Positions 1,117 through 61,344 of a stretch of 64,000 nucleotides of DNA are shown here, piece after piece. Source of the stretch: an uncultured Paracoccaceae bacterium (GTDB taxonomy: Bacteria > Pseudomonadota > Alphaproteobacteria > Rhodobacterales > Rhodobacteraceae). A program made the translations under genes and the position numbers. The notes under the pieces were generated by a model that did not search any database, was not told the origin of the DNA, and saw only the letters and a program-made list of their open reading frames with translations. The DNA is taken from contig CALKXV010000032.1 in assembly GCA_938005545.1 (NCBI GenBank), forward strand, positions 124,001 to 188,000, read 5' to 3'. Position 1 is the first letter of the stretch. Every line of letters begins with the position of its first letter.

Positions 1117-2451
1117 ATGACAAAACGGGTTTGCATTATTGGCGCAGGTCCATCCGGGTTGGCGCAAATGCGCGCGTTCCAGTCGGCGGCAGTGGCTGGC
1201 GCAGATGTGCCTGAAGTCGTTTGCTATGAAAAGCAAAGCGATTGGGGCGGTCTTTGGAATTACACATGGCGCACCGGCGTTGATGAACATGGCAACCCAT
1301 GCCACGGGTCGATGTACCGATACCTATGGTCAAATGGACCTAAAGAGGGTCTGGAGTTTGCGGACTATACGTTCGAGGAACATTTCGGAAAACCAATTGC
1401 CAGTTATCCACCACGCGCTGTGCTGTTTGACTATATCAAAGGGCGGGTCGAGAAAGCCGGCGTCCGCGACCAGACCAAGTTCAATACGATTGTGCGAGAC
1501 GTACGTGCCGTTGATGGCGGCTTTGACGTTACCGTTCGCGATGCCGTTGCAGACGCCGAAACGACGGAACGTTTTGACAATGTGATCGTCGCCACTGGCC
1601 ATTTTAGCGTGCCGAATGTGCCCGAATATCCCGGATTTGATACCTTCAATGGGCGCATTTTACACGCCCATGATTTCCGTGATGCGAGAGAGTTTGCGGG
1701 TAAAGACATCTTAATCCTGGGCACGTCCTATTCTGCCGAGGATATAGGGTCGCAGTGCTGGAAGTATGGCGCCAAGTCGATCACGGTTGCGCATCGGACA
1801 GCGCCGATGGGGTACGATTGGCCCGAGAACTGGCAGGAAGTCCCGAAACTGGACCGCGTCGATCCCAAGACCGCATACTTTATTGACGGCACGTCCAAAG
1901 ACGTCGACGTGATCATTCTGTGCACGGGCTATAAGCACCACTTCCCGTTTTTACCCGATGATCTGCGTCTGAAAACGCCGAACGTATTGGCGTCGGACGA
2001 TCTTTATAAAGGTGTGGTTTATAACCATAATCCGGCACTGTTTTACCTTGGCATGCAGGACCAATGGTTCACGTTCAATATGTTCGACGCCCAAGCTTGG
2101 TACGTGCGAGACATCATATTGGATCGGATTGCGGTTCCGGATATGGCGGCGCGTATTGCAGATGTGAAAACGCGCCAAGATGCTGAAGCGGCTTTGGCTG
2201 ACGACTATGCCTGCATCGACTATCAGGCGGCTTACACAAACGAGCTTGTCGCAGAAACGGATTACCCAAGCTTCGACATTCAAGCGGCATCACAAGCATT
2301 CTACGAATGGAAGAAGCACAAGAAGAAGGGAATCATGACGTTCCGCGATCATGGGTACGCCAGCCCGATGACGGGCACCCAGGCACCTGCGCATCACACG
2401 CCGTGGAAAGACGCGTTGGATGACAGCTTGGAGGACTACCTAAGGGGTTGA
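1117..2451 (+). CDS. tmm: Trimethylamine monooxygenase (bacterial FMO)
   Basis: Oxidises trimethylamine to trimethylamine N-oxide in the cytoplasm using NADPH and O2. The protein has 444 residues, the usual length for Tmm. Seen: the FAD loop GAGPSG at residues 9-14; the flavin-monooxygenase fingerprint FxGxxLHxxxF at 177-187; and in the NADPH domain the Tmm-typical GTSYSAEDI at 202-210 in place of the standard GxGxxG. The W-rich N-terminal part ([15 protein letters not shown]) is also typical. Start ATG 1117 has a purine-rich leader. The genes that follow import and demethylate the product TMAO, which strongly supports Tmm over another FMO. Confidence 0.95.
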
Positions 2452-2462
2452 AAAAAATCTGA

Positions 2463-3494
<1,032 letters not shown>

Positions 3495-3516
3495 TCTAAG
3501 CTTGATTTGACTTTTG

Positions 3517-3550
3517 GCACCCGCCCCGCTGAACTTGGTGGGGCGGGTGC
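3517..3550 (+). terminator. GC-rich stem-loop between tmoX and tmoW
   Basis: A perfect 11-bp inverted repeat, GCACCCGCCCC (3517-3527) with GGGGCGGGTGC (3540-3550), around a 12-base loop. There is no U-run after it, so full termination is unlikely. More likely it stabilises the tmoX message or trims read-through, raising binding-protein output over the transporter core. A similar hairpin follows tauA at 24034-24063. Confidence 0.65.
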
Positions 3551-3572
3551 AGCAATAACGGGGCGGGCACAA

Positions 3573-4586
3573 ATGAACCCGGTGATTTCGGCAAAAAACG
3601 TATGGAAGCTGTTCGGGCCCGATCCGGAAAGCTATCTGAAATCGATGACGGCCGGGCACAGTTTCGACGACATTCGCGCCGATGGATATATCGCCGGCGT
3701 AAAAGACGTTTCGCTTGACGTGTCCAAGGGCGAGATGCTTGTGATCATGGGGCTTTCCGGTTCCGGTAAATCAACGCTGGTGCGGTGTTTTTCACGGCTT
3801 CACGATATCACAGGCGGAAAAATCGAGGTCGACGGTCAGGATATCATGGGCTTGAAAGAAGTCGAACTGATCGAACTCCGTCGCTCGAAAATGGGTATGG
3901 TGTTCCAATCCTTCGGGCTTTTACCGCACCGAACAGTTCTTCAGAACGTTGCGTTTCCCTTGGAAATGCGTGGCCAAGACAAACATTCAACGCGCGACCG
4001 TGCGATGGAAGTTGTAAAGCTTGTTGGGCTTGAAGGGCGCGAGGATTATTTCCCGCGCGAGCTTTCGGGCGGTCAGCAACAACGGGTCGGTATTGCGCGG
4101 TCGCTGGCGATTGAACCCGACATTTGGTTTCTGGACGAACCGTTTTCGGCGCTTGATCCATTGATCCGTCGCGAGATGCAGGACGAGTTTTTGCGTCTTC
4201 AAGCGATGTTGGGGAAGACCATTGTTTTCATCACGCACGACTTTGATGAAGCTTTGCGGCTTGCGGATCGCATTGCAATTATGAAAGACGGAGCGGTCGA
4301 ACAGATCGATACACCGGACAAGATCGTGCTGAATCCGGCAACGGACTACGTTGCAAAATTCACCGAAGAAGTCGACAAGGCCCGCGTTGTGCACGCCAGT
4401 GTTCTGGTCGAAGACGGCTCGATGGGCAAAGGCGAGCCGGTGGCGGCGGACGCAACCATTCTGTCGTTGGCGCGTCGGTTGATCAATGACGCCGCCGACG
4501 TGATCCCGGTGCAGATGCCAGACGGAAATGTGAAAGGTATGCCGCGCCAAGCGGCATTGGATATTCTTTTGGGAGAGGCGAAATGA
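3573..4586 (+). CDS. tmoW: TMAO ABC transporter, ATP-binding subunit
   Basis: A 337-residue ABC ATPase of the glycine betaine (ProV/OpuAA) type. Seen: Walker A GLSGSGKST, Q-loop in VFQSFGLLPHRT, signature LSGGQQQRVGIAR, Walker B IWFLDEPFSALD and switch His in FITHD. The C-terminal 80 residues form a degenerate CBS-like tail, as in ProV relatives. ATG 3573 gives the expected N-terminus (NPVISAKNVWKLFG); the extra 22 residues of the longer frame would be encoded by the preceding stem-loop. It overlaps tmoV by four bases. Confidence 0.92.
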   Translation: MNPVISAKNVWKLFGPDPESYLKSMTAGHSFDDIRADGYIAGVKDVSLDVSKGEMLVIMGLSGSGKSTLVRCFSRLHDITGGKIEVDGQDIMGLKEVELIELRRSKMGMVFQSFGLLPHRTVLQNVAFPLEMRGQDKHSTRDRAMEVVKLVGLEGREDYFPRELSGGQQQRVGIARSLAIEPDIWFLDEPFSALDPLIRREMQDEFLRLQAMLGKTIVFITHDFDEALRLADRIAIMKDGAVEQIDTPDKIVLNPATDYVAKFTEEVDKARVVHASVLVEDGSMGKGEPVAADATILSLARRLINDAADVIPVQMPDGNVKGMPRQAALDILLGEAK

Positions 4587-6568
4587 CCATCGTGTCGGAC
4601 GCCAATCTTGCGGTGCCTGAAGGGGGCACTCCAGCGATGGCAGTCCGCCGAAAAGTTCTGATCGGACTCTTTGGTTTCGCGGCCTTGTTGACGGTTCTTC
4701 GCCCGTGGTTGCCAGAGGCGCTGATCCGGTTGCCCGAGGCGATGCTGCTTCCGTGGTCTGATTGGTTGGACGTCGGTTTCGCTTGGGTTCAAAATGATCT
4801 GGGCCTGATCCACGTGACCCGCGAGATAGCAAGTTGGCTTGGATTTCTGATCGATGCGGCGGCCAATGTGCTTTATGGCAAATCCCGTTGGCCCAATTTC
4901 GAAGCAATGCCGTGGTCTGTTGTGGCGGGATGTCTTGCGGTTTTGGGGTATTGGTTGGGCGGCTGGAAACTGGCGCTTTTGGCAGGCGGTACAATGGTTT
5001 GGACCGCGTTGATGGGCCAATGGAAATGGGCGATGGAGACGATGTCGGTCATCGTCGTCGCAGCACCCGTCGGTTTCGCAGTCGGACTGTTGATCGGGAT
5101 ATTAGCATGGCGATCCGCGCGTTTTGAAAAAGCCATGCGGCCCGTTCTACTGGTTCTGCAAACGCTGCCATTTTACAGCTACCTTTTGCCCGCCGTTATT
5201 TTCTTCAAAGTCGGCCCAACTGCGGCGTCGGTTGCGACCATTGCATATTCCATGCCACCGATGATCCTAATGACGATCGTAGGTCTGAAAAAAGTGCCGC
5301 CAGAAGTCGTCGAGGCTGGGAAAATGGCGGGCTGCTCGCGGTGGCAAATGCTGCGTTCAGTCTACATCCCATCGGCGCGGACAGAAATTCTCGTGGGTCT
5401 CAATCAGGTCATCATGTTGGCCTTGGCCATGGTCGTTCTGACAGCCTTTATCGGCATGCCGGGTTTGGGTGCGAAACTGTTGGCGATGATGAACAGTTTC
5501 AAACTTGGTCGGTCGTTTGAAATCGGTGTGACGATTGTTCTATTGGCGGTGACGTTGGATCGACTAAGCAAAGCATGGGTCGTCAAACAACCCGAACACT
5601 TCGAAAAGGGCACACCCTGGTGGCAACGTCACATCCTGCTTTTGATCGGGGTGGCGACCTTCGTGGTGTTCATGGTGTTGGCCCAAGTGATCCCTATTTT
5701 GAATGAAATCGGGCGGCGTCAATCGCTATCCATGGGCTCGGAAATTGATGTCGCCATCAAAGGTTTTCTGAACTTGAGCTGGGTCAAGGAAACAACAGGG
5801 TTTATTCGCTGGTTCTTCAATCTTTGGATTTTGATCCCAACAGAACGCGCCCTTTTGTACGTTCCAACCGCAGCAGTAATCGCCGTTGTCACAGGCTTTT
5901 GCTATGCGCTTGGCGGAAGACGACCAGCCTTGATCGGAGTATTGTTCTTTTCAATTGTCGCCGGATTTGGTTGGTGGGATCGCGCAATGATCACACTTCA
6001 TTCGACGTTGACGGCCGTCATACTGGCGATGGTATTCGGAATGCCGTTGGCCGTTTGGGCCGCACGCCGCGAAACATGGTCGGCGCGCATGATCTTTGTG
6101 TGCGACACCGCGCAAACCTTCCCGAGTTTCATTTACTTGCTTCCCGCAATCATGCTGTTCGGGATCACACCATTCACTGTCATCTTGTCGATCCTGATCT
6201 ACACGATGGTGCCCGTGATCCGTTACACCATCGAAGGCTTGCGCGGTGTGCCACCCGAATTGACCGAAGCCGCCGACATGTCTGGTGCCACCCGCTGGCA
6301 AAAACTTTGGAATGTGCAATTGCCCCTCGCAATGCCGACAATTGCCGTTGGATTGAACCAGGCGCTTATCTTCGCATTCTTCATGGTCATTATTGCAGCC
6401 TTTATTGGCACACGCGATTTGGGTCAGGAAATGCAACGCACGCTTGCCGGAACGCAATTGGGAAAGAATTTCACACTCGGATTTTCCGTGGTCTTTATGG
6501 CGCTGACTTTCGATATCGCGATCAATGCATGGGCCGAAAAGCGGCGCAGGATTTTAGGGCTGGCTTAA
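4583..6568 (+). CDS. tmoV: TMAO ABC transporter, fused double permease
   Basis: A 661-residue inner-membrane protein made of two tandem binding-protein-dependent permease domains. Each half ends with an EAA loop: EAGKMAGCSRWQ in the first and EAADMSGATRWQ in the second, both followed by a V-G-L-N-Q segment. About a dozen or more hydrophobic segments are visible. Most betaine transporters use two copies of a single-domain ProW; here the pair is one chain, matching the TmoV reported from Ruegeria pomeroyi. It starts within the end of tmoW (ATGA overlap) and stops five bases before tdm. Confidence 0.92.
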   Translation: MTIVSDANLAVPEGGTPAMAVRRKVLIGLFGFAALLTVLRPWLPEALIRLPEAMLLPWSDWLDVGFAWVQNDLGLIHVTREIASWLGFLIDAAANVLYGKSRWPNFEAMPWSVVAGCLAVLGYWLGGWKLALLAGGTMVWTALMGQWKWAMETMSVIVVAAPVGFAVGLLIGILAWRSARFEKAMRPVLLVLQTLPFYSYLLPAVIFFKVGPTAASVATIAYSMPPMILMTIVGLKKVPPEVVEAGKMAGCSRWQMLRSVYIPSARTEILVGLNQVIMLALAMVVLTAFIGMPGLGAKLLAMMNSFKLGRSFEIGVTIVLLAVTLDRLSKAWVVKQPEHFEKGTPWWQRHILLLIGVATFVVFMVLAQVIPILNEIGRRQSLSMGSEIDVAIKGFLNLSWVKETTGFIRWFFNLWILIPTERALLYVPTAAVIAVVTGFCYALGGRRPALIGVLFFSIVAGFGWWDRAMITLHSTLTAVILAMVFGMPLAVWAARRETWSARMIFVCDTAQTFPSFIYLLPAIMLFGITPFTVILSILIYTMVPVIRYTIEGLRGVPPELTEAADMSGATRWQKLWNVQLPLAMPTIAVGLNQALIFAFFMVIIAAFIGTRDLGQEMQRTLAGTQLGKNFTLGFSVVFMALTFDIAINAWAEKRRRILGLA

Positions 6569-6572
6569 GACA

Positions 6573-8948
6573 ATGACCGTGAAACCCATCTTCGAAGTTC
6601 CTTGGCAAAGATCAGGGGTCATCCAACCGGGGTTGCCAATTTTGCCGCATGGCGTTGAACGACACCCGATCCCCGGTGGCGGATCGCGGGCCGTGCCGAT
6701 TTCCAAAGGCGACGAGATCATCGTTCAGGATCGCGAAGGATTGCAACCAGGCCAGTTGGTCTTTTTCGCACCGGACAAGACGTCGGATGCGGCGATGCTT
6801 GGAACTAAGGGGCAGGGGCGCCCGACCGCAACAATCAAAACGCTCGCGAACGGATCACCGTCAGGCGCGCGCGTCCTAAAGGCGTTGGTTGCGTCTGGAT
6901 TTAACATTGAGACCGGTGATGCGATTGGCGTTTTCGCCGACGGATCGCGCGCCGGAGATTTTGAAGAATTCACATCCGCTTGCGATGGATTGCTGATCTG
7001 TGCCGCTCCGGGCGGACCAATGTCGCCTGAATTACAAAATGTTCCGACCGAGTTGGTGCTGTACATCAGACGCGCATCGCCGGGCGATGCAAAGCTGGGA
7101 ATTGGCCCGCCAGACCCTTTGGCCGATCCTTTGCATGACGCCAATATTCAGCCGGGCCAAGCCAACACCTATGAAGTGAAGAAAGGCGAGTACATCCAGA
7201 TCCTTGACGTTCAGGGGCGTGAATGCTCGGACTTTCAAGCCTTCAGTCGACGTGCTTTGGATAAGGGGATTGAGCGTGAAATCGATCCAACCACGACGCG
7301 CAGTCTAATGGGCAGTCTTTATCCTCAGCCCGGAATTTTCTCAAAATATTGGAGCGTGGATCAAGAGCCTTTGGTCGAAATCATTCAAGACACCTGCGGG
7401 CGTCATGATACTTTCGGATTGGCTTGCACGGCGCGGTATTACGAAGACTTGGGATACCCGGGCCACATCAATTGTTCGGACAATATGAACGCTGATCTGG
7501 CACGTTTCGACATCAAACCACGCGGGGGATGGCCCGCGATCAATTTCTTTTTCAACACAATGCTGGACGAAACGAACGCGCTTGGCATGGACGAACCTTG
7601 GTCGCGACCGGGCGACTATGTTTTGTTACGAGCACTTTCCGATCTGGTCTGCGTGTCAACGGCTTGCCCTTGCGATGTCGATCCAGCGAACGGCTGGAAC
7701 CCGACTGACATCCAAGTGCGCACCTACAAGGCCGACGAAAGTTTTAAACGTTCGATCGGATATAGAAAATCTGCGGAGGCGGATGTGGAAGAAACAAAAG
7801 AAACCGCGTTTCATTCCTGTTTTGCGAAACACACGCAGGATTTCGTGGAATACAATGGCTATTGGCTGGCGAATTCCTTTCCTAAACACGGCAGTATTGA
7901 CGAATATTGGGCGGCACGTGACGGTGTGGCGATCATGGATCTGTCGCCCTTGCGAAAGTACGAAGTCACCGGGCCCGATGCGGAAGAATTGATGCAGGCC
8001 TGTGTCACGCGAAACGTCAGGAAAATCAGTGTTGGTCAGGTGAGCTATACGGCCATGTGTTACGAGCATGGCGGTATGATCGACGACGGCACAATCTATC
8101 GTTTGGGCGAAACGAACTTCCGCTGGATCGGTGGAAATGACACCAGCGGTTTGTGGCTGAAAGAGCAGGCTCAGAAACGTGGGCTTCATGCATGGGTCCG
8201 CCCATCGACGGATCAGTTGCACAATGTCGCGGTGCAAGGACGTCATTCACGAACGATCATGGATCAGGTGTTTTGGACGCCGCCAACCCAACCTACAATC
8301 CAAGAGCTGCCGTGGTTCCGGCTAACCATCGCACGTCTTGGTGATTTCGACGGAAAATCGGTTGTGATTTCGCGCACCGGTTATTCTGGCGAATTAGGAT
8401 ACGAGGTCTTTTGTCATCCAAAGGACGCTGTCGCGATTTTCGATGCACTTTGGGCTGCTGGCGAACCTTTTGGAATGAAACCTCTGGGTTTGACAGCTTT
8501 GGATATGGTGCGTATCGAAGGCGGATTGATTCTTGCCGGTTCCGAGTTTGACGACACCACAGATCCATTCGAAGCCGGAATTGGATTTACGGTGCCCTTG
8601 AAAACCCAAGACGACGATTTCATCGGCCGCGCGGCATTGGAAGAACGCAAAGCGCATCCCCATCGGAAACTGGTTGGCTTTGAAATTGAAGGTGGCGTCG
8701 TGCCATCACCAGGCGATTGTGTGCGAGTGGGCAAGGCTCAGGTCGGTGAAATTACGTCGGCCATGAAATCTCCGGTTCTTGGAAAAGTCATCGCATTGGG
8801 CCGCGTGGCGATGGCTCATTCAGAAATTGGCACCGAAATTCAGATCGGGCAATTGGACGGTCAACAAAAACGCCTTAGTGCAAAGATTGTACCATTCCCA
8901 CATTTCGACCCGACGAAAGAGCGCGTCAAAGGCAACTACGGCGACTGA
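6573..8948 (+). CDS. tdm: Trimethylamine N-oxide demethylase
   Basis: Splits TMAO into dimethylamine and formaldehyde in the cytoplasm. The C-terminal GcvT-like tetrahydrofolate domain can take up the one-carbon unit. The 791 residues show an N-terminal region, a DUF1989 (urea carboxylase-associated) domain at about 190-380 and a GcvT/aminomethyltransferase fold at about 415-790. Likely zinc ligands of the family's three-Cys-one-His site are visible: C275, H278, C285 and the Cys pair at 365-367 (TACPCD). It directly follows the TMAO importer. The first 180 residues carry a weak copy of the DUF1989 strand pattern (compare residues 37-66 with 195-225), suggesting an internal duplication. Confidence 0.93.
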   Translation: MTVKPIFEVPWQRSGVIQPGLPILPHGVERHPIPGGGSRAVPISKGDEIIVQDREGLQPGQLVFFAPDKTSDAAMLGTKGQGRPTATIKTLANGSPSGARVLKALVASGFNIETGDAIGVFADGSRAGDFEEFTSACDGLLICAAPGGPMSPELQNVPTELVLYIRRASPGDAKLGIGPPDPLADPLHDANIQPGQANTYEVKKGEYIQILDVQGRECSDFQAFSRRALDKGIEREIDPTTTRSLMGSLYPQPGIFSKYWSVDQEPLVEIIQDTCGRHDTFGLACTARYYEDLGYPGHINCSDNMNADLARFDIKPRGGWPAINFFFNTMLDETNALGMDEPWSRPGDYVLLRALSDLVCVSTACPCDVDPANGWNPTDIQVRTYKADESFKRSIGYRKSAEADVEETKETAFHSCFAKHTQDFVEYNGYWLANSFPKHGSIDEYWAARDGVAIMDLSPLRKYEVTGPDAEELMQACVTRNVRKISVGQVSYTAMCYEHGGMIDDGTIYRLGETNFRWIGGNDTSGLWLKEQAQKRGLHAWVRPSTDQLHNVAVQGRHSRTIMDQVFWTPPTQPTIQELPWFRLTIARLGDFDGKSVVISRTGYSGELGYEVFCHPKDAVAIFDALWAAGEPFGMKPLGLTALDMVRIEGGLILAGSEFDDTTDPFEAGIGFTVPLKTQDDDFIGRAALEERKAHPHRKLVGFEIEGGVVPSPGDCVRVGKAQVGEITSAMKSPVLGKVIALGRVAMAHSEIGTEIQIGQLDGQQKRLSAKIVPFPHFDPTKERVKGNYGD

Positions 8949-13675: not shown

Positions 13676-14266
13676 GTGCCGAACGTAAATGATACCAAAG
13701 CCGTCATTCAAAGCGAAGCCAGCCGGCTTTTCGCCGAGAAAGGCTATGCTGCTGTTTCCATGCGAGAATTGGCAGATGCAGTTGGTGTCAGACAGGGCGG
13801 TCTTTACAACCATTTCGAAAGCAAACAGGCGCTTCTTGTCGGCCTGATGGCAAGCCATATGGAAGCGCTGATTGCGACTTTGGACGAAGTCCTGAATGGT
13901 TTGACCGGCCCTATTCCACGGCTCGAAGCTTTTGTCCGGCATCACGTGTCCTACCATCTGGATTTTCCGAACGACGTTTTTCTGGCCTACATGGAAATCC
14001 GAAGCCTTGAACCCGACGGGCGACATCATGTGGTTGCGCTCCGCGACAGCTATGAAGGCGTGTTGCGGGATATTCTTAACGACGGAGTTGAGGCGGGTCT
14101 GTTTCGGATTTCGGACGTGGCCGTCCAATCCCGAATGCTATTGTCGATGATGACGGGGGCCACAGTCTGGTTTCGCGCAAACGGACGGTTAAGCCGCGAA
14201 ACGGTTGTCGACTGCCATTTGCAAAGCGCACTGCAAAGTGTCGGATTGAGGGTGGAACACACATGA
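13676..14266 (+). CDS. TetR-family regulator of the liu operon
   Basis: A repressor-type regulator of about 196 residues. An N-terminal helix-turn-helix is seen in [36 protein letters not shown]; the rest is the all-helical ligand domain. An ATG at 13649 in the same frame lies inside the 28-base palindrome and has no ribosome site, so the GTG at 13676 (or TTG 13667) is preferred; neither has a strong Shine-Dalgarno. The stop overlaps mccB (ATGA), making it the first gene of the operon. The likely ligand is an acyl-CoA of leucine breakdown, by analogy with LiuQ/LiuR-type regulators. Confidence 0.85.
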
Positions 14267-15867
14267 AGATCGATAGCCAAATATCCATCTCATCAGATGA
14301 ATTTATCGCCAACAGCGCCGCAATGCTGGAACACCTTTCAGCGGTTGAAGCCGTCTCGGAAGCCGCAAAGAAAGGCGGCACGGACGAAGCCCAAAGCCGT
14401 CACGCGTCGCGCGGGAAAATGTTGCCGCGTGATCGGGTGCAGGCATTGCTTGATCCGGGTTCGCCATTTCTGGAAGTCGGGCTTTTTGCCGCTCACCAAA
14501 TGTACGACGGCGACATTCCCGCAGCCGGCGCAATTGCCGGCGTTGGTCAGGTGGCCGGGCGACAAGTCATGGTGTTGGCCAATGATGCCACTGTGAAGGG
14601 CGGGACGTACTTCCCACTGACCGTGAAGAAACACTTGCGCGCTCAGGAAATTGCGCAGGAAAACCGGCTGCCTTGCGTCTATCTTGTCGACAGCGGCGGT
14701 GCCAACCTTCCGAACCAAGACGAGGTGTTCCCGGATCGCGAGCACTTTGGTCGCATTTTTTACAACCAGGCCCAGATGAGCGCGGCGGGTATTCCACAAA
14801 TCGCGGTCGTCATGGGATCCTGCACCGCGGGCGGTGCTTATGTTCCTGCGATGAGCGATGAAACCGTGATCGTGAAAGGCCAGGGCACCATCTTTCTGGC
14901 AGGCCCCCCATTGGTAAAAGCAGCCACAGGTGAAGACGTCACTGCCGAGGAACTGGGCGGCGGCGAAATGCACACGTCGATTTCCGGCGTTGCAGATCAC
15001 TTGGCTGAAAACGATGCGCACGCGTTGCAGATTGCGCGTACGATTGTCGGGAACCTAGGTGTTGAAAGTCGCGCCAATTTGAACCTCCAAACGCCAGAAG
15101 ACCCGGCCTATGACCCGAGCGAACTCATGGGGATCATCCCGTCTGATCCGCGCATCCCCTTCGACATCCGCGAAGTGATCGCGCGCCTTGTCGATGGCAG
15201 CCGATTCGATGAATTCAAAGCGCGGTATGGCGAAACACTGGTGTGCGGTTTCGCGCATGTGCATGGGATCCCTGTCGGTCTGATTGCCAACAACGGTGTT
15301 TTGTTTTCGGAAAGCGCGCAGAAGGGCGCGCATTTCGTCGAGCTTTGCTCACAGCGCCGTATCCCGTTGGTGTTCTTACAAAACATCACGGGGTTCATGG
15401 TCGGACGCCAAGCGGAGGAAGGCGGCATCGCGCGTCATGGGGCGAAACTGGTAACCGCAGTGGCGACGACATCGGTGCCAAAAATCACGATGATCGTTGG
15501 CGCGTCTTACGGGGCGGGCAACTATGGGATGTCGGGCCGCGCTTTCGGGCCGCGCTTCCTTTGGACATGGCCCAATTCGCGGATTGCCGTCATGGGCGGC
15601 GAACAGGCCGCAAAGACGCTGGCCTTGGTCAAACGCCAAGCCATGGAAAAACGAAACGAGGCATGGTCGAAAGCCGAAGAAGCCGCATTCAGCGTCCCAA
15701 CAGAAGAGATGTTTCTGCGCCAAAGCCATCCCTTATACGCCAGCGCTCGCCTTTGGGACGACGGCATCATCGACCCGCGTAAAAGCCGCGACGTGCTGGG
15801 TCTGTCGCTGGCCACCACGTTGAATGCGCCGGTTGAAGAAACTCGGTTCGGGCTGTTTAGGATGTGA
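14263..15867 (+). CDS. mccB: Methylcrotonyl-CoA carboxylase, beta (carboxyltransferase) subunit
   Basis: Transfers CO2 from carboxybiotin to 3-methylcrotonyl-CoA in leucine degradation. The 534 residues match the MCC-beta length and contain two crotonase-like halves. Seen: the CoA/biotin loop [16 protein letters not shown] in the first half and [22 protein letters not shown] in the second, the latter typical for MCC over propionyl-CoA carboxylase, followed by [16 protein letters not shown]. The start overlaps the TetR stop and the stop overlaps the mccA start, so the genes are translationally coupled. Confidence 0.95.
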
Positions 15868-17831
15868 TGGTGATGGCAATTCAAAAACTCCTCATTGCGA
15901 ACCGGGGCGAGATCGCCTGTCGGATTATCGAAAGCTGTGGCGAACTGGGGATCGCGAGCGTGGCGGTGTATTCGGACGCTGACGCAAATGCCCGCCATGT
16001 GGATATGGCGGATGAAGCTGTGCGACTTGGGTCTGCTCCGGTTGCAGAAAGCTATTTGCGCGGCGATGCCATATTGGAAGCGGCGCGTGCGACGGGTGCG
16101 GATGCGATCCATCCGGGTTATGGGTTCTTGTCGGAAAACCCCGAATTTGTGGACAAGGTCGAAGCCGCCGGATTGACGTTCGTCGGCCCTTCGGCAACTG
16201 CGATCCGCGCTATGGGTCTGAAAGATCAGGCGAAAATTCTGATGGAAGACGCCGGTGTGCCAGTGGTTCCGGGCTATCACGGGGCAGAACAAGATCCGGC
16301 ATTCATGGCGGAACAAGCCGCTGGTATCGGGTATCCGGTTTTGATCAAAGCGCGCGCGGGTGGTGGCGGCAAGGGCATGCGTCTGGTGGAACGCGCGGAA
16401 GATTTCGCCGAAGCGCTTGGCAGTGCGGCGCGCGAAGCCGAGGCGAGCTTCGGTGATCCGGTTTGTCTGATTGAAAAATACATTCAATCGCCGCGTCATA
16501 TCGAAGTTCAGGTTTTTGGCGATGCCCATGGCAATGTGGTGCATCTGTTTGAACGGGATTGTTCGCTGCAACGCCGCCATCAAAAGGTGATCGAAGAGGC
16601 GCCCGCGCCGGGTATGACAGAAGAACTGCGCGCCGCCATGGGGGCTGCCGCTGTCGCTGCGGCGCGCGCGGTGCACTACGAAAGTGCGGGAACGGTCGAG
16701 TTCATTGTGGACGGGGCCGCATTCCCAAGCCCCGATGCCTTTTGGTTCATGGAAATGAACACCCGACTTCAGGTCGAACACCCGGTGACCGAGGCAGTGA
16801 CGGGGCTTGATCTTGTGGCGCTCCAGCTTTCTGTCGCTGCGGGCGTTGCCCTGCCGTTCACGCAAGACGAGGTGACACTGACCGGCCATGCTTTTGAGGC
16901 CCGACTTTATGCCGAAGACCCAAGTGTCGGATTTTTGCCCGCAATAGGCAAACTAACCCGGCTTCGGTTCGGCGGTGGCGCGCGCATTGATACCGGCGTA
17001 CGCGAATGCGACGCGATCACGCCCCATTACGACCCGATGATCTCCAAGGTCATTACTCATGGAGCAGACCGGGCCACGGCGCTGCGCCATCTGGCCCGCG
17101 CGCTTGAAAAGACGAGTGTGGTGGGCGTCGAAACCAATCGCGATTTCCTGATCCGTCTTACGCGCGATCCCGAATTCATGAAAGGTCAGGTCGATACCGG
17201 TCTTATTGCGCGAAAAGCCGAAGACCTTGTCGCCCTGCCGCACACAGGTGCTTTGGATTGGTCCGTAGCGGCGCTTGCCATCTTGCGGCCCGGCGAAACA
17301 AAAGAAGTGTTCGATCGGCTCGCCAATTTTCGTCACTTTGGTCCGGCGCGTCAGATCGTATGGTTCGATGACGACGCCGACGTGATTGTCGAAACCACGA
17401 ACGGCGAGTGCTGCGTCCAAACACCGGATGGCCATGCAACTCTCAACACCATCACATGGAACGGCGATGCCCTGACGTTCGTGTCCAACGACACCCGTTA
17501 CAAGTTCCACGTTTATAGTGACAACGATACCGTGACTGTGGAGCGCGGCGGGACCACACGGCGGTTTAGCCGTCTGCAACCGGGCGCTGGTGCCGGACCA
17601 GACAGCGCCGATGTGATCCTTGCGCCCCTGACGGGACGGGTGGTGTCCGTCATCGCGGGCGTCGGCGATCATGTGGCAAAGGGCGACGCGCTTCTTGTTC
17701 TGGAAGCCATGAAGATGGAGCATCGCCTGGTCGCGCCGCGTGATGGGATAATCGCAGAAATGAACGCGACCGATGATGCCCAAGTCCAACAGGGGATCGC
17801 ATTGGTCCGGTTGATCGAGGAAGACGCATGA
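15867..17831 (+). CDS. mccA: Methylcrotonyl-CoA carboxylase, alpha (biotin carboxylase) subunit
   Basis: ATP-dependent biotin carboxylase with its own biotin carrier. Seen: N-terminal KLLIANRGEIACRI, ATP-grasp loop KARAGGGGKGM, EKYIQSPRHIEVQVFGD, catalytic MEMNTRLQVEHPVTE, and near the C-terminus the biotinyl-lysine site EAMKMEH in a lipoyl-like domain. About 654 residues, normal for the family. ATG 15867 forms a TGATG overlap with the mccB stop; ATG 15873 is an equally good start two codons later. It partners the upstream beta subunit. Confidence 0.95.
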   Translation: MVMAIQKLLIANRGEIACRIIESCGELGIASVAVYSDADANARHVDMADEAVRLGSAPVAESYLRGDAILEAARATGADAIHPGYGFLSENPEFVDKVEAAGLTFVGPSATAIRAMGLKDQAKILMEDAGVPVVPGYHGAEQDPAFMAEQAAGIGYPVLIKARAGGGGKGMRLVERAEDFAEALGSAAREAEASFGDPVCLIEKYIQSPRHIEVQVFGDAHGNVVHLFERDCSLQRRHQKVIEEAPAPGMTEELRAAMGAAAVAAARAVHYESAGTVEFIVDGAAFPSPDAFWFMEMNTRLQVEHPVTEAVTGLDLVALQLSVAAGVALPFTQDEVTLTGHAFEARLYAEDPSVGFLPAIGKLTRLRFGGGARIDTGVRECDAITPHYDPMISKVITHGADRATALRHLARALEKTSVVGVETNRDFLIRLTRDPEFMKGQVDTGLIARKAEDLVALPHTGALDWSVAALAILRPGETKEVFDRLANFRHFGPARQIVWFDDDADVIVETTNGECCVQTPDGHATLNTITWNGDALTFVSNDTRYKFHVYSDNDTVTVERGGTTRRFSRLQPGAGAGPDSADVILAPLTGRVVSVIAGVGDHVAKGDALLVLEAMKMEHRLVAPRDGIIAEMNATDDAQVQQGIALVRLIEEDA

Positions 17832-18685
17832 GCGATAGGGTTCTTCTTTTTGAGATGGCGCCTCGCGACGGATTGCAGAATGAGGCGCGCGCAATATCCA
17901 CGGCCGACAAAATCAAGCTGGTCGATCTGTTGTCGGCGACCGGGCTACGCAAGATTGAAACGGCCAGCTTTGTGTCACCCAAATGGGTGCCCCAGATGGC
18001 CGATGGCGCTGAGGTGATGGCGGGAATACAAAGACGCCCCGGCGTCACCTATACGGCTCTGACCCCGAATATGCGCGGGCTGGAACGCGCCTTGGCGGCT
18101 AAAGTCGATGAAATCGCAGTCTTTGGGGCCGCGTCTGAAACCTTCAGTCAAAAGAACATCAATTGCTCGATCTCGGAAAGCCTTGAGCGATTTGAACCCG
18201 TTGTTGCGCGCGCATTAAGCGAAGGTCTGCCGGTGCGGGGCTATATCTCCTGCGTGACCGATTGCCCCTATGAAGGGCGGATTGCGCCAAAAGCTGTGGG
18301 CGATGTGGCGCGGGTTTTAAAACGCATGGGGGTTTACGAAGTCTCGGTCGGCGATACCATCGGCAAGGGCACACCGGATCGGGTGACGGCGATGTTGGAC
18401 GCCGTGTTAGAACACGTACCTGCGCGCGACATCGGCGCACATTTTCATGACACCAACGGTCGCGCTTTGGATAACATCCGGGCATCGCTGGCGCTTGGGG
18501 TTCGAACCTTCGATGCTTCGGCTGGTGGTTTGGGCGGCTGTCCTTATGCGCCCGGGGCCGCAGGCAACGTCGCGATGGAGGCTGTGGTCGATATGTTGGA
18601 CGCGGATGGGTTTGAAACAGGCATTGACCGCGCTTCCCTTGGCGAAGCGGCCAAGTTTGCGCAAAGCCTGCGGAGTGGGGCGTGA
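17828..18685 (+). CDS. mvaB: Hydroxymethylglutaryl-CoA lyase
   Basis: Cleaves HMG-CoA to acetoacetate and acetyl-CoA, the last step of the leucine route. 285 residues with the TIM-barrel motifs FEMAPRDGLQNE (catalytic Arg and metal Asp), GAHFHDTNGRAL (metal His pair) and the family signature around GGCPYAPGAAGN, containing the active-site Cys. It overlaps mccA by four bases and the hydratase by one. Also named hmgL or liuE in other systems. Confidence 0.95.
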   Translation: MSDRVLLFEMAPRDGLQNEARAISTADKIKLVDLLSATGLRKIETASFVSPKWVPQMADGAEVMAGIQRRPGVTYTALTPNMRGLERALAAKVDEIAVFGAASETFSQKNINCSISESLERFEPVVARALSEGLPVRGYISCVTDCPYEGRIAPKAVGDVARVLKRMGVYEVSVGDTIGKGTPDRVTAMLDAVLEHVPARDIGAHFHDTNGRALDNIRASLALGVRTFDASAGGLGGCPYAPGAAGNVAMEAVVDMLDADGFETGIDRASLGEAAKFAQSLRSGA

Positions 18686-19479
18686 TGGACAGATACCAAC
18701 AGATCAAGGTCACGATTGACGCCCGAGGTGTTGCGGCCCTTTGCCTGAACAACCCCAAACGCAAGAACGCGCTGTCGGCCCTGATGATGGACGAACTGAC
18801 AGATTTCGCGGCTCAGGCCCCGAAACAGGACATTAAAGCGGTGGTCTTGTCAGGGGCGGATGGGGTCTTTTGCGCCGGCGGCGATTTGACGTGGATGCAA
18901 GCTCAAATCGAGGCGGACCGGGCAGGGCGCAAACGCGAAGCCCGCCGACTGGCCATGATGCTGAAAGCGTTGAACGAAATGCCACTTCCGTTGATCGGAC
19001 GGATCGAGGGCGTGGCCATGGGCGGCGGTATTGGTATGGCCTGTATATGCGACGTAGCGATTGCAACGCACGATGCCAAGTTCGGTCTGACCGAAACACG
19101 TCTCGGGCTGATCCCGGCAACGATTTCCCCTTACGTGATGGCGCGCATGGGCGAAGGGGCCGCGCGGCAGGTTTTCATGAACTCCCGCATTTTCAACGGC
19201 GACGAAGCCGTCCGTCTGGGGCTTGCGGCCCGCGCGGTGGCAGTCGATGATTTAGACGCCGCCGTCGAAGCCGAAGTTGCTCCGTATCTTCTACTGCCGA
19301 CCGCCACCGTTGGGCGCGCGAAAGCCTTGGCTCGGATGTTGGGCCCGAAGATAAACGATGACGTGATCGAAGCCACCATCGAACGGCTGGCAGATACGTG
19401 GGACACCGAAGAAGCGCGCGAAGGCATCGCGGCGTTTCTGGAAAAACGCAAACCCGTTTGGGCGCAAAAGGAAGTTTGA
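18685..19479 (+). CDS. liuC: Methylglutaconyl-CoA hydratase (enoyl-CoA hydratase family)
   Basis: Hydrates 3-methylglutaconyl-CoA to HMG-CoA, linking MCC to the lyase. 264 residues with crotonase motifs: oxyanion loop GVFCAGGDLTWM, second loop GVAMGGGIGMACICDVA, and FGLTETRLGLIPATISPYV, whose LGLIPATISPYV stretch is typical of the AUH/LiuC group. ATG 18685 overlaps the lyase stop (TGATG). Position between the lyase and a thiolase in this operon supports the assignment over a general enoyl-CoA hydratase. Confidence 0.9.
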   Translation: MDRYQQIKVTIDARGVAALCLNNPKRKNALSALMMDELTDFAAQAPKQDIKAVVLSGADGVFCAGGDLTWMQAQIEADRAGRKREARRLAMMLKALNEMPLPLIGRIEGVAMGGGIGMACICDVAIATHDAKFGLTETRLGLIPATISPYVMARMGEGAARQVFMNSRIFNGDEAVRLGLAARAVAVDDLDAAVEAEVAPYLLLPTATVGRAKALARMLGPKINDDVIEATIERLADTWDTEEAREGIAAFLEKRKPVWAQKEV

Positions 19480-19480
19480 T

Positions 19481-20695
19481 ATGGACGGACAAAACCCCTC
19501 AGACCCGATCATGATCTGTGGTGCCGCAAGAACGCCGCTTGGCGCATTCCAAGGCGTGTTTTCAGGCGTTTCGGCAACCGATCTTGGGGCCACTGCGATC
19601 AAGGCGGCCCTGACAGACGCGGGCCTGTCGCCGGAAAACGTCGATGAAGTCTTGATGGGCAACGTGTTGTCTGCCGGGTTGGGTCAGGCACCAGCGCGCC
19701 AAGCCTCAATCAATGCAGGCATTCCAACGTCCGCACCTTGCACGACGGTTTCGAAAGTCTGTGGTTCCGGCATGAAATCGGTGATGCAAGCCCATGATGC
19801 CATGGTTGCTGGGGCCATCGGTGTGGCTGTTGCGGGCGGTATGGAAAGCATGACCGGCGCGCCGTATCTGTTGCCGTCGGGCCGGGGTGGTGCACGGATC
19901 GGGCACACTCAGATGCTGGACCATATGATGATGGACGGGCTTGAAGATGCCTTTGATGTCGCCCCTGACGGTCGTCGCCGTTCGATGGGAACCTTTGGCG
20001 AAGATTGCGCCGAAAAATACCAGTTCACCCGCGACGACCAAGATGCCTACGCCATCGAAAGCGTGTCTCGCGCGCAAAAAGCCGCAGCAAACGGTAGTTT
20101 TGATTGGGAAATTGCGCCGGTGACACGCCAAACCCGAAAAGGTGACGTCACACAAACCCAAGACGAAGGCCCCCAAAAAATCGATCCAGCCAAAATCCCG
20201 AATCTCCGTCCAGCCTTCAAGAAAGACGGAACGATCACGGCGGCTTCGTCATCGTCGATCAATGACGGTGCTGCGGCCTTGGTGCTGGCGAAGGCTAGCC
20301 AGGTTGACGCCCTTGGCCTAACGCCTTTGGCCCGCATCGTGGGACACGCGGCTTTCGCTGGCGCGCCTGATTGGTTCACCACCGCACCGGTTTACGCCAA
20401 AAAAACGCTGTTCGAAAAGATTGGTTGGCGCCTTGAAGATGTGGATCTGTTCGAGATCAACGAAGCCTTTGCCTGCGTGCCTATGGCGTCCATGCGTGAA
20501 TTGGGGATCGAGCATGAAAGGCTGAACGTGCATGGCGGTGCTGTTGCATTGGGCCACCCGATCGGTGCCTCGGGCGCACGCATTCTTGTGACGCTTCTGG
20601 GCGCGATGAAGTCGCGGAATGCCAAGCGCGGCGTTGCGTCAATCTGCATCGGTGGCGGCGAAGCAACTGCCATAGCGCTGGAGGCTGAATTTTAA
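19481..20695 (+). CDS. Acetyl-CoA acetyltransferase (thiolase II)
   Basis: A 404-residue biosynthetic/degradative thiolase that would split acetoacetyl-CoA formed from the lyase product. Seen: nucleophile C94 in KVCGSGMKSV, the GGMESMTGAPYLL segment, catalytic His in GGAVALGHPIGASGAR and the second Cys in CIGGGEATA. One base separates it from the hydratase stop, so it is the last gene of the operon. Its stop overlaps the convergent LacI gene by four bases, with no visible terminator between. Confidence 0.93.
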   Translation: MDGQNPSDPIMICGAARTPLGAFQGVFSGVSATDLGATAIKAALTDAGLSPENVDEVLMGNVLSAGLGQAPARQASINAGIPTSAPCTTVSKVCGSGMKSVMQAHDAMVAGAIGVAVAGGMESMTGAPYLLPSGRGGARIGHTQMLDHMMMDGLEDAFDVAPDGRRRSMGTFGEDCAEKYQFTRDDQDAYAIESVSRAQKAAANGSFDWEIAPVTRQTRKGDVTQTQDEGPQKIDPAKIPNLRPAFKKDGTITAASSSSINDGAAALVLAKASQVDALGLTPLARIVGHAAFAGAPDWFTTAPVYAKKTLFEKIGWRLEDVDLFEINEAFACVPMASMRELGIEHERLNVHGGAVALGHPIGASGARILVTLLGAMKSRNAKRGVASICIGGGEATAIALEAEF

Positions 20696-58410: not shown

Positions 58411-59715
58411 CTAGCCAGCCCGCTTCAATAGCCCACCCAGCAAACCGCTTCGTTTGTTGCCTAGTCGGTTTCGCAGATCGCTCAATTTGGGTGCGTACCG
58501 CAAGGGTGCCGAGATGACGATACTTGGCTGCACGGATAGCAGCGCGCGACCGGCTTCGGTCAAGTCTTTTGTGGTTAGGGCCTGATAGGCTTTGTAGCGA
58601 TCGCTCGGATCGCAGATTCGACCCATTTCACTAATGTCCGTCATCATGTCTAAGGCGCGACCTTCCAATTCATCGAGGCTCATCAACTCGTTGACATGAT
58701 GTCGACGCAGGGTCTTGGTCACTTCGGCGTCGCTCAGTGTTTTGGCGGCTGCGTGTATCGTATCGATCGCGACGTCACAGATTTCGGCGATCTTTCGTGA
58801 CGGTCCTTCCAGATAAACCCGAACCATGTCGCGGCGGGCATAGGTCCGTTCTTCGACGGATACGTGATAAACCAACCCCCGTTTTTCTCGCAATTCCTGC
58901 ATCAAGAGCGACTGTCCATGGCCGCCAAGGATGTGGCTGAACATCCCGATGGCGCGCTTCTGTTCCACAGAGTAATCGGTTATGTCAAAGCCGAGCCAGA
59001 CACTCGATTCCTCGGAACTTGTGCCCATGTGCATGTCGCCGCCATGATAGGTTAATTCGGGCAGGGCGCTGACGTCGCCTGCAGGCAGTTCGGCAAGACA
59101 CGCCTTGACCAGCACCACGACGTCGTCGTGGGAAATGTCGCCACATACGGCAATGGTGATGTTGCGGCCCACATAAAAAGTGTTGTGGAAGGCCACCAGA
59201 TCATCGCGTGTGATCGCATCAACAGTATCCTTGTAGCCGATGACCGGACGCGACATTGGCTGATCGGGGTAGGCGGCTTCGAACAAGGCTTCGTTCATCG
59301 AGCAGTTGAAGCACCCCCGGCAACTTTCATCTTCGATGATTTGTTTTTCAAGTTCAATGTCTTCCACGTCAAGTTTGGGGCGTTGGATCAGATCGGCCAA
59401 AAGTTGCATGGCACGTGGAACATCATCGTTCAGGACTGTACAATAGTACGAAGTCTGATCCAGTTGTGTCCGCCCGTTGACATTGCCGCCCAGGTCTTCG
59501 ATCCGATCTTGAAGTTCGATCCCCGAATGGGTCTCGGTGCCCCGAAACATCAAATGTTCGAGAAGATGGGCCATGCCCGCCAAATGTGCAGGTTCGTGAA
59601 TGCCGCCCGCCAAAACGTTAATACCAAGGGCTGTTCGGTTGAAATGCGGGGCGGTCTCGGAAATGACTGTGATGCCGTTTTCCAGAACGGTTGAATTGCG
59701 GGTAACGTCGTACAT
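58411..59715 (-). CDS. M16 family metallopeptidase (mitochondrial-processing-peptidase-like)
   Basis: 434 residues from ATG 59715, preceded by GGAG (a start 33 bases further up lacks it). The inverted zinc motif HxxEH is intact as H50-LLE-H54 in AHLLEHLMFRGT, and the third ligand Glu lies in the IELEKQIIEDE stretch (121-130). The C-terminal half has the usual catalytically silent M16 repeat with REKRGLVYHVS. No signal peptide: cytosolic. Usually M16 genes of this group sit beside thrC; here the neighbour is a divergent dioxygenase. Confidence 0.92.
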   Translation of the reverse strand: MYDVTRNSTVLENGITVISETAPHFNRTALGINVLAGGIHEPAHLAGMAHLLEHLMFRGTETHSGIELQDRIEDLGGNVNGRTQLDQTSYYCTVLNDDVPRAMQLLADLIQRPKLDVEDIELEKQIIEDESCRGCFNCSMNEALFEAAYPDQPMSRPVIGYKDTVDAITRDDLVAFHNTFYVGRNITIAVCGDISHDDVVVLVKACLAELPAGDVSALPELTYHGGDMHMGTSSEESSVWLGFDITDYSVEQKRAIGMFSHILGGHGQSLLMQELREKRGLVYHVSVEERTYARRDMVRVYLEGPSRKIAEICDVAIDTIHAAAKTLSDAEVTKTLRRHHVNELMSLDELEGRALDMMTDISEMGRICDPSDRYKAYQALTTKDLTEAGRALLSVQPSIVISAPLRYAPKLSDLRNRLGNKRSGLLGGLLKRAG

Positions 59716-59748
59716 GAATTGCGCTCCGATAATGCTGCCGACAAACAA

Positions 59749-59800
59749 GTCGGAAATATTGGCGACAAAATGGCAAATTTATTGTTGAATGTCGGAAATA
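59749..59800. promoter_or_regulatory. Direct repeats in the M16 - dioxygenase divergent promoter
   Basis: GTCGGAAATA occurs at 59749-59758 and again, same orientation, at 59791-59800, exactly 42 bases (about four helix turns) apart. They fill the 154-base gap between the two divergent genes and may be a regulator's binding sites. Confidence 0.45.
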
Positions 59801-59869
59801 GTACAGAGCGTGTTGATTGCGCGAGGTTTCTTGGGAGCACCCTGGATTTTTCAGCCAAAGAGAAGTAGC

Positions 59870-60745
59870 ATGACACCGCAATCTACGACAGAAACAGGTT
59901 TGACCGCCGACCAAGTCGACGCCTATTGGCGCGACGGGTATTTGTACCCGATTTCGGTTCTGGATGCGGCTGAGGCGGCCAATGCGCGGACCGCACTGGA
60001 GGACATCGAGCATGACTGGCGCGATGCTGGTTTGCCGTTGCCTTTGAACACCTACAAACGGGTCAATTCGCATGTGGTGATGCCTTTTGCCGCAGAACTT
60101 GCCCGCAATCCGCGCGTTTTGGATGTGGTTGAAGGAGTGATTGGCCCTGACATCCTGATTTACGCCGCTGAGTTCTTCATCAAAGAACCACGAACCTCCG
60201 CAATCGTGTCGATGCATCAGGATCTGACCTATTGGGGGTTGGGGGCGATTGACGGGTTGGTCACGGCTTGGATCGCTTTGTCACCGGCAACGCGGGCGTC
60301 TGGTTGCATGGATTTTGTCCAAGGCAGCCACAAGAACCCGATTTTGCCCCATGAAGACACGTTTGACGCCAACAACCTGCTTAGTCGCGGCCAGGAGGTG
60401 AAGGTGGACATCGCCGAGGCCGACAAAGCGCGGATCGTGTTGGAGCCCGGTCAGATGAGCCTTCACCACGGGCTGACGATCCATGGGTCGGGGCCGAATA
60501 CCTCGGACGATCGCCGGATCGGATGCGTGATCCGCTATGTGCGCCCGGATATGGAGCAGCGTGTCGGCGCAAAGGATTATGTTATGGCCGCGCGCGGCGA
60601 GGATCGGTTTGGGCATTTTGAGCATGTTGAGGCACCAAAGGCGAATTTTGATGCGGAAAGCCTTGGCATTTATGATGAAATTCGTGCGGAGCAGGCCAAG
60701 ACGATGATGAAGGGTGCCGCAAACAACACAGGGATTTATTCCTGA
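59870..60745 (+). CDS. PhyH-family Fe(II)/2-oxoglutarate dioxygenase (TmpA/PhnY*-like)
   Basis: 291 residues from ATG 59870; the frame extends upstream, but this start fits the family. Iron ligands H116-x-D118 (MHQDLTYWG) and H205 (IHGSGPN) are present, with the 2-oxoglutarate Arg at about 215-216 (DDRRIG). PhyH enzymes hydroxylate small acids and alcohols. The next gene, overlapping by one base, is an HD-domain oxygenase, the same pairing as PhnY*-PhnZ and TmpA-TmpB, which hydroxylate then oxidatively cleave aminophosphonates. The substrate here is inferred, not shown. Confidence 0.85.
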   Translation: MTPQSTTETGLTADQVDAYWRDGYLYPISVLDAAEAANARTALEDIEHDWRDAGLPLPLNTYKRVNSHVVMPFAAELARNPRVLDVVEGVIGPDILIYAAEFFIKEPRTSAIVSMHQDLTYWGLGAIDGLVTAWIALSPATRASGCMDFVQGSHKNPILPHEDTFDANNLLSRGQEVKVDIAEADKARIVLEPGQMSLHHGLTIHGSGPNTSDDRRIGCVIRYVRPDMEQRVGAKDYVMAARGEDRFGHFEHVEAPKANFDAESLGIYDEIRAEQAKTMMKGAANNTGIYS

Positions 60746-61344
60746 TGGACCACGTCAAATTCACAGCCATGAAAGACGGTGACAAGGAAGACTATGATTT
60801 CCTGACCGAACACGAGGTGGAATACACCAAAGGCACGGCGGATCGTTTGCTGAAAGCGCTGATGTCGCTGGATGAAAGCCTGTCGGGGTACAAAGTCACG
60901 CGGCTTGAGCATTCTTTGCAAGCGGCCAGTCGCGCCGAGCGGGACGGGGCGGATATCGACTGGATCGTGTCAGCCTTGCTGCATGACATTGGCGATATTT
61001 TTGCACCCTACAATCACGACGAATACGCGGCTGCGATCCTAAAGCCTTTTGTGCGTGAGCAATGCACGTGGGTCGTGGAAAAGCACGGCGATTTCCAGAT
61101 GGTCTATTTCGGCGAACATGTAGGTGCTGATCCCATGAAGCGTGAGGCCTATGCCGGGCATATGTATTTCAACGATTGCGTAACGTTCTGCGAACGCTGG
61201 GATCAGTCGAGCTTTGATCCTGAGTATGAGACGCTGGCCTTGGAACACTTTGAACCCTTGGTGCATCGGGTCTTTGCCCGCGCGCCCTATGATCCAGATG
61301 TTGTGCGGGCAGGTGTGCGTGAACCGCTTGTTGGTCAGGTTTAG
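60745..61344 (+). CDS. HD-domain mixed-valent di-iron oxygenase (TmpB/PhnZ-like)
   Basis: 199 residues; ATG 60745 overlaps the dioxygenase stop (TGATG). Metal ligands of the PhnZ/MIOX oxygenase subset are all seen: H56 (RLEHSLQAA), H80-D81 (LLHDIGD), H91 (YNHDEYAA), H114 (VVEKHGDFQ) and D153 (CERWDQ), rather than the simple HD phosphohydrolase set. PhnZ and TmpB cleave the C-P bond of a hydroxylated aminophosphonate with O2. With its partner, this would convert a phosphonate such as an aminoethylphosphonate or its trimethylated form to phosphate plus glycine or betaine. The reaction is inferred. Confidence 0.82.
   Translation: MDHVKFTAMKDGDKEDYDFLTEHEVEYTKGTADRLLKALMSLDESLSGYKVTRLEHSLQAASRAERDGADIDWIVSALLHDIGDIFAPYNHDEYAAAILKPFVREQCTWVVEKHGDFQMVYFGEHVGADPMKREAYAGHMYFNDCVTFCERWDQSSFDPEYETLALEHFEPLVHRVFARAPYDPDVVRAGVREPLVGQV

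Follow-up and report, generated by a model that had tools for sequence, protein, structure and literature searches.

PhnZ-type chemistry follows the scheme R-CH(OH)-X + O2 -> R-COOH + HO-X. The hydroxylase partner of PhnZ, PhnY*, is of the PhyH type, the family of phytanoyl-CoA alpha-hydroxylase, whereas TmpA is an oxygenase of the gamma-butyrobetaine hydroxylase type and not a PhyH protein. Both TmpA and gamma-butyrobetaine hydroxylase place their hydroxyl group on the carbon that is beta to the nitrogen. A 2020 review lists three HD-domain mixed-valent diiron oxygenases, myo-inositol oxygenase (MIOX), PhnZ and TmpB, two of which cleave C-P bonds (PMC8177086). A YxxE loop is a feature of PhnZ and TmpB (PMC8177086), and a fifth conserved histidine is the marker of the TIGR03276 clade (PMC11203657). 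In ocean surveys, counts of PhnZ-like genes disagree widely (PMC10574752).

Here, we describe a PhyH-HD gene pair on a 64,000-nucleotide stretch of DNA from an uncultured Paracoccaceae bacterium; this whole stretch is henceforth referred to as the window. In an earlier note the pair had been read as a candidate two-step aminophosphonate pathway. Our analysis retains the two steps, a hydroxylase followed by an HD diiron-type oxygenase, but not C-P as the bond that is cut. Instead, the two genes probably encode hydroxylate-then-cleave enzymes for carnitine- or betaine-like compounds. A literature search returned no relevant paper joining PhyH with HD, or carnitine with HD oxygenases.

Organization of the gene pair and its surroundings

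The presence of a PhyH gene paired with an HD gene was borne out, as the reading frames overlap by one base and the family scores of the products exceed the cut-offs (Table 1). An in-frame ATG at 59789 offers an alternative PhyH start, giving a protein of 318 aa; the alignment of PhyH relatives begins only around residue 11 of the 291-aa form.

Table 1. Features of the PhyH-HD pair and of the trimethylamine region, in window positions
Feature	Position	Strand	Evidence
PhyH-family Fe(II)/2-oxoglutarate oxygenase, 291 aa (P0001)	59870..60745	+	Pfam PF05721, 98.1 bits (cut-off 22)
HxD iron ligands H116, D118 of PhyH	60215..60223	+	invariant in 29 relatives
Distal iron ligand H205 of PhyH	60482..60484	+	invariant in 29 relatives
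TGATG stop/start overlap, 1 shared base	60743..60747	+	stop 60743-60745, start 60745-60747 (sequence)
HD-domain protein, predicted mixed-valent diiron oxygenase, 199 aa (P0002)	60745..61344	+	predicted structure, pLDDT 95.7
L46-S-G-Y49, aligned to YxGE loop of TmpB/PhnZ (loop absent)	60880..60891	+	alignment; L, Y in 24/24 close relatives
H56, first metal ligand of HD	60910..60912	+	invariant, 47/47
H80-D81, HD motif	60982..60987	+	invariant, 47/47
D84, aligned to fifth His of organophosphonate oxygenase clade	60994..60996	+	D in 42/47, and in 24/24 close relatives
H91, HD metal ligand	61015..61017	+	invariant, 47/47
H114, HD metal ligand	61084..61086	+	invariant, 47/47
Q118, aligned to conserved Lys of TmpB/PhnZ (HVAAK)	61096..61098	+	Q in 47/47; Lys invariant in 6 TmpB
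D153, HD metal ligand	61201..61203	+	invariant, 47/47
Trimethylamine monooxygenase	1117-2448	+	798 bits (cut-off 675)
TMAO demethylase	6573-8945	+	1186 bits (cut-off 1100)

The full iron ligand sets that had been claimed for both proteins are indeed present. In the PhyH protein, the H116-x-D118...H205 triad and the downstream R215/R216 are invariant among 29 relatives with identities down to 30%, and both the PhyH domain and the HxD...H triad assign it to the Fe/2OG PhyH oxygenases. Its nearest solved structures are 6zyk (E 1.9e-37, 132.7 bits), which we take to be ThoJ, and SnoK (5epa; 65.1 bits). Against the model for PhnY-type methylphosphonate hydroxylases it scored only 19 bits (cut-off 500).

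Upstream of the pair, an M16 peptidase gene and ctaD lie on the other strand, and an ankyrin-repeat gene and lipB follow downstream, so that the window provides no pathway clue. Here, as in the majority of Roseobacter genomes, housekeeping genes (valS, ctaD, lipB), and not a carnitine operon, surround the pair or the HD gene on its own. The Roseobacter neighbours (valS, metF, xanthine-dehydrogenase-like and aminotransferase genes) were considered as a functional clue and judged to reflect housekeeping synteny, because HD stays in place with or without PhyH.

The TMA/TMAO pathway reported earlier for this genome was recovered, with both of its enzymes over their cut-offs (Table 1). Betaine/choline-type ABC transporter genes are found within the same region (1117-8945, + strand). 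At 14263-20692 (+ strand), genes for a carboxyltransferase, a biotin carboxylase, an HMG-CoA-lyase-like protein and a thiolase have the appearance of leucine/isovalerate degradation. The same contig (C32 of the source genome, G000) carries a further operon some 24 kb downstream (L258:761-11570), which encodes an AraC-type regulator, an acyl-CoA dehydrogenase, an ATP-grasp CoA ligase, an enoyl-CoA hydratase and a BKACE protein; genes for an ABC transporter and for a choline sulfatase lie beside it. This region is a probable locus of gamma-butyrobetaine/carnitine and choline-sulfate catabolism. A carnitine 3-dehydrogenase is encoded elsewhere in the genome.

Ligands and fold of the HD protein

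The six HD ligands had been numbered correctly, and all of them are invariant in 47 relatives with identities down to 32%. In Pfam, the protein scored 27.4 bits for HD (cut-off 22) and 25.3 bits for MIOX (cut-off 25). A profile built from 41 HD relatives retrieved PhnZ (E 1.7e-13) and TmpB (2.5e-11) from the PDB, followed after a gap by a dGTPase-like protein (0.09) and MIOX (0.4). The predicted structure, for which plasmid-derived alignment rows were left out, matched PhnZ with Z 17.4, TmpB with 16.6 and MIOX with 11.7, all remaining structures scoring 8.3 or less; Foldseek gave 1e-7 to 1e-5 for PhnZ/TmpB versus 0.09 for HD hydrolases. Since profile and fold both put PhnZ and TmpB on top, with a clear gap to the HD hydrolases, there is good support for the prediction that the protein functions in the manner of an HD mixed-valent diiron oxygenase, bearing in mind that fold alone is no proof of function and that Arg53 recalls the HD phosphatases. 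This residue occupies position -3 from the first ligand histidine, and strict conservation of an arginine has been reported for HD phosphatases (PMC8177086).

Among 24 close HD relatives, L46, Y49, D84, W109, Q118, Y121 and W152 are invariant (24/24). Aromatic residues are conserved in the family at positions 49, 109, 117, 121, 152 and 157, and would suit a pocket for a trimethylammonium group.

Distribution of HD and its association with PhyH

The 80 HD loci in the species-genome scan belong nearly all to Rhodobacteraceae/Roseobacteraceae, together with the gammaproteobacterium Luminiphilus. HD was found in 48 of the 147 genomes of relatives and in 59 of the 398 of the phylum sample. No virus-borne copies were found when these were looked for.

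A PhyH relative is present on the same stretch in 65 of the 110 HD loci examined first, nearly always directly upstream and with small gaps or overlaps; the other 45 loci, in which HD identity reaches 84%, have no PhyH. Across 90 genomes of the family, each of the 19 with a close PhyH also has HD (19/19; Fisher P = 1e-11), and 12 have HD while a close PhyH is absent. The recurrence of the pair is far beyond chance. PhyH depends on HD and not the reverse, suggesting that HD is the constant step and PhyH one of several feeders. At one locus (L118, genome G037), PhyH carries an in-frame TGA and the adjoining HD gene is free of stops, so that the hydroxylase seems to be the first to decay.

HD is also modestly associated with carnitine dehydrogenase across the family genomes (29/31, P = 0.002). 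The association with TmpB (12/15, P = 1e-4) is as strong, and a shared lifestyle may therefore explain both.

Genomic context of HD relatives

Neighbours were identified by profile scores, and the counts given here cover identified neighbours. A BKACE (cdhC-type) gene lies directly upstream of HD in one Rhodobacteraceae genome (G011) and in three genomes of another family (G308, G196 and G212). In all four, BKACE and HD are followed, in this order, by genes for carnitine 3-dehydrogenase, acyl-CoA dehydrogenase, an ATP-grasp CoA ligase and enoyl-CoA hydratase. Three further genomes from the genus of the latter (G192, G262 and G410) show the HD-dehydrogenase part, and in G009 HD is accompanied by a carnitine dehydrogenase of 496 aa and preceded by the end of a BKACE gene. 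The dehydrogenase next downstream of HD scored 770 bits at L240 and 785 bits at L180 (cut-off 592); that of G308 (L231) reached 590.8 bits versus the same cut-off. The HD relatives in carnitine operons come from about three genera and share 66-71% identity with the window copy, which is itself not in such an operon. In G080, G014 and G010, BKACE adjoins the dehydrogenase and HD is located elsewhere. The possibility that HD replaces the betainyl-CoA thioesterase (cdhB) of these operons was rejected, because L240 and L180 retain full-length proteins of dehydrogenase-thioesterase size (486 and 496 aa).

In four unrelated families (L161, L211, L220 and L221), the gene immediately upstream of HD encodes a TmpA/gamma-butyrobetaine-hydroxylase-like oxygenase. 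These partners score 318-357 bits on the TmpA model versus 236-266 on the gamma-butyrobetaine model. They share 45-48% identity among themselves and 31-35% with the TmpA found beside true TmpB; being near each other and far from true TmpA, they suggest that hydroxylase and HD diverged together from TmpA and TmpB. More generally, HD is retained while the hydroxylase upstream of it varies (PhyH, TauD type, or a different 2OG oxygenase in L155) or is missing.

Choline genes form a further context. Plasmid pF045_1 of Pseudomonas carries a pair of a TmpA-like oxygenase and HD (51%) (L211:6872-8597), with genes for a choline SBP, a choline dehydrogenase and an ALDH after it; the pair lies near an IS66 element. 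The Rhizobium HD (76%) has as neighbours a GbcB-like (glycine-betaine-monooxygenase-reductase-like) protein, an amidohydrolase, a choline dehydrogenase, a choline SBP and an ALDH. Taken together, the carnitine, choline and TmpA-like contexts lend support to the earlier suggestion of a quaternary-amine substrate, as do the related BKACE operon, the carnitine 3-dehydrogenase and the choline sulfatase of the source genome.

Other arrangements were observed as well. In the genus of the window (L181:7048-8691) and on a Phaeobacter plasmid (L210:8001-9647), a membrane protein of the FA_hydroxylase family is encoded directly downstream of HD (71%). At L142:6038-7024, a methylenetetrahydrofolate-reductase-like protein is encoded directly upstream of HD (52%); genes for AraC-type regulators and for an FAD oxidoreductase are close by. 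Distant HD relatives (<50%) have varied neighbours.

The same oxygenase chemistry might also serve compounds other than quaternary amines. PhyH would then alpha-hydroxylate some other metabolite, such as a carboxylic acid, with HD removing one carbon (alpha-oxidation) or cleaving a diol as MIOX does. The membership of phytanoyl-CoA alpha-hydroxylase in the PhyH family, the C-C cleavage by MIOX, and the FA_hydroxylase, acyltransferase and enoyl-CoA hydratase genes near some HD relatives would all fit. However, where close HD relatives (at least 50% identity) reside in informative operons, these mostly indicate carnitine, choline or betaine, and we regard a substrate outside the quaternary amines as unlikely.

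Comparison with phosphonate-cleaving HD oxygenases

The HD protein scored far below the curated cut-offs of the NCBIfam organophosphonate HD models: 40.9 bits for TIGR03276 (cut-off 214.6), 36.5 for TmpB (300) and 33.5 for PhnZ (300), the cut-offs for TmpB, PhnZ1 and Phn-HD being missed by at least 5-fold. In a tree, which includes only 4 PhnZ-type rows, a 100/100 branch separates the HD family from TmpB/PhnZ; many forks in this tree are open, and its inner branch order was used at starred nodes only.

For residue comparison, six true TmpB sequences from relatives served as reference. In the alignment, YLGE of TmpB corresponds to LSGY of HD, HDIGH to HDIGD, HVAAK to HGDFQ and VRYLDE to CERWDQ. 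The ASxHxxxLQGG segment of TmpB/PhnZ is deleted in HD, and in the column of the VRxxDE arginine the HD relatives have E, A, H, D or Q. The clade-marker fifth histidine would, from its alignment column, be the HDxGH histidine. For PhnZ K108, R158 and other residues with presumed functional roles, it was conservation that was compared. Judged from these alignments, the HD protein is a distinct relative of the known phosphonate-cleaving enzymes that appears to lack their phosphonate-binding residues.

True TmpB, over the curated cut-off, coexists with HD in 12 Rhodobacteraceae genomes (G032, G033, G037, G039, G044, G050, G055, G056, G073, G074, G080 and G087). In the source genome no TmpB-like protein was found at E 1e-20, and the sole PhnZ-like protein is this HD, at 34 bits. 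No phosphonate genes were recognised beside HD relatives wherever neighbours were identified. No Pho-box-like site is found near 59700-59870, the window as a whole having 5 matches versus 3.9 by chance.

Orthology to TmpB or PhnZ was rejected on the basis of the cut-offs, the residues, the tree and the coexistence with true TmpB. The proposed parallel with TmpA/TmpB and the C-P cleavage by a PhnZ-type HD protein are not supported: the alignment and tree that the earlier note had suggested place HD outside the TmpB/PhnZ clade (100/100), with the YxxE loop, the HDIGH histidine, the HVAAK lysine and the ASxHxxxLQGG segment all missing, and 12 genomes have a separate true TmpB. A divergent C-P-cleaving pair, in which PhyH would hydroxylate an aminophosphonate (e.g. 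TMAEP) and HD would release phosphate, is favored by the nearest structures (PhnZ and TmpB), by the higher scores of the TmpA-like partners on the TmpA model and by the frequent presence of this HD in genomes with TmpB. It nevertheless seems quite unlikely given the missing residues, the separate clade, the coexistence with true TmpB, the greater likeness of the TmpA-like partners to each other than to true TmpA, and the lack of an upstream Pho-box-like site.

Least likely of all is that HD is a dinuclear phosphohydrolase acting on a nucleotide or sugar phosphate, the job of PhyH being unrelated: Arg53 resembles the HD-phosphatase arginine (PMC8177086), the dGTPase appears in the profile search at E 0.09, the ligand motif is shared by known bimetallic phosphohydrolases (PMC11203657) and stand-alone HD genes occur among housekeeping genes, but PhnZ/TmpB/MIOX are by far the closer matches in both structure and profile, and hydroxylases of differing folds and carnitine enzymes make little sense as operon partners of a hydrolase.

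Proposed function of the pair

From the computed ligands, fold, clade, PhyH-HD co-occurrence, contexts of relatives and absent phosphonate-site residues, we infer the oxygenase chemistry, the substrate class, the bond and the products. Our main reading, a general statement that names no one substrate, is that HD is an oxygenase, that the pair acts on a quaternary amine and that a bond other than C-P is cut; we give it a probability of about one half. Carnitine-like compounds lead as the substrate class.

PhyH, with Fe(II), 2-oxoglutarate and O2, would hydroxylate the carbon next to the scissile bond of a quaternary-ammonium (carnitine/betaine-type) compound. HD, as a PhnZ/TmpB/MIOX-like enzyme with an Fe(II)/Fe(III) diiron centre, would then use O2 to cut the C-C bond at the carbinol carbon, yielding a shorter betaine, most simply glycine betaine, and a small oxygenated fragment. 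In the leading specific form, (CH3)3N+-CH2-CH(OH)-X would be converted to glycine betaine and HO-X, the latter being glycolate if X is CH2COO- (L-carnitine) and bicarbonate if X is COO- (hydroxylated beta-alanine betaine). With R = (CH3)3N+CH2, the product would be glycine betaine whatever X is, including the phosphonate of the TmpB substrate. As TmpA and gamma-butyrobetaine hydroxylase act at the same beta carbon, an exchange of hydroxylases upstream of one HD is easy to picture. Reasoning from the CIP rules, L-carnitine and the TmpB substrate (R)-hydroxy-TMAEP have the same spatial configuration.

This mechanism would explain why HD occurs alone, as its substrate may be taken up ready-made, as well as its sites in carnitine operons and its lost phosphonate-binding residues. 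Left unexplained is the retention of an O2-dependent step where the BKACE/dehydrogenase route is complete. As BKACE and carnitine dehydrogenase are already enough for carnitine, an HD in these operons would be redundant. In R. pomeroyi, CdhABC is more abundant on carnitine (PMC12478193). Further points against the main reading are the housekeeping surroundings of the window copy and of most Roseobacter copies, the modest association with carnitine dehydrogenase across genomes, and the varied neighbours of distant HD relatives. In its boldest form, the proposal makes HD the founder of a family of carnitine (or carnitine-like betaine) oxygenases, O2-dependent diiron enzymes that would cut the C-C bond of L-carnitine directly to give glycine betaine and glycolate and would be supplied by hydroxylases that can replace one another (PhyH in the window, gamma-butyrobetaine-hydroxylase-like enzymes elsewhere); we put this forward as tentative and rather doubtful.

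The HD family constitutes a sister clade that is widespread among alpha- and gammaproteobacteria, is often present in the genomes of marine Roseobacter and Planktomarina, and is tied to carnitine/choline genes. If our main reading is true, HD mixed-valent diiron chemistry would extend to C-C cleavage of betaines, the sea would have an added O2-dependent route to glycine betaine, and such HD genes should not be scored as phosphonate degraders in ocean surveys.

Comparison with known systems

The pair resembles TmpA/TmpB of Leisingera caerulea (6npa) in its two-gene makeup of hydroxylase and HD oxygenase, its six iron ligands and its fold; in addition, some HD relatives have a TmpA-like oxygenase as their partner. 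It differs in that the hydroxylase is a PhyH protein instead of the TmpA type and in that HD falls outside the TmpB clade, without the YxxE loop, fifth histidine, conserved lysine and LQGG segment. PhnY*/PhnZ (2-AEP; 4mln) and G. maris PhnY/PhnZ1 likewise combine a PhyH-type hydroxylase with an HD diiron oxygenase, and provide the nearest fold. However, identity is 22-24%, the phosphonate-site residues are absent and the PhyH score is far below the cut-off. The PhyH oxygenases 6zyk and SnoK are the nearest solved structures of the hydroxylase, yet they are distant and their substrates differ. MIOX shares the HD diiron fold and ligands and cleaves a C-C bond at a carbinol, but is less similar in structure, with a Pfam score barely at the cut-off and another pocket and size. 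Finally, the CdhABC system of carnitine catabolism (carnitine dehydrogenase, BKACE) is the genomic home of several HD relatives, in which HD is an additional gene inside that operon.
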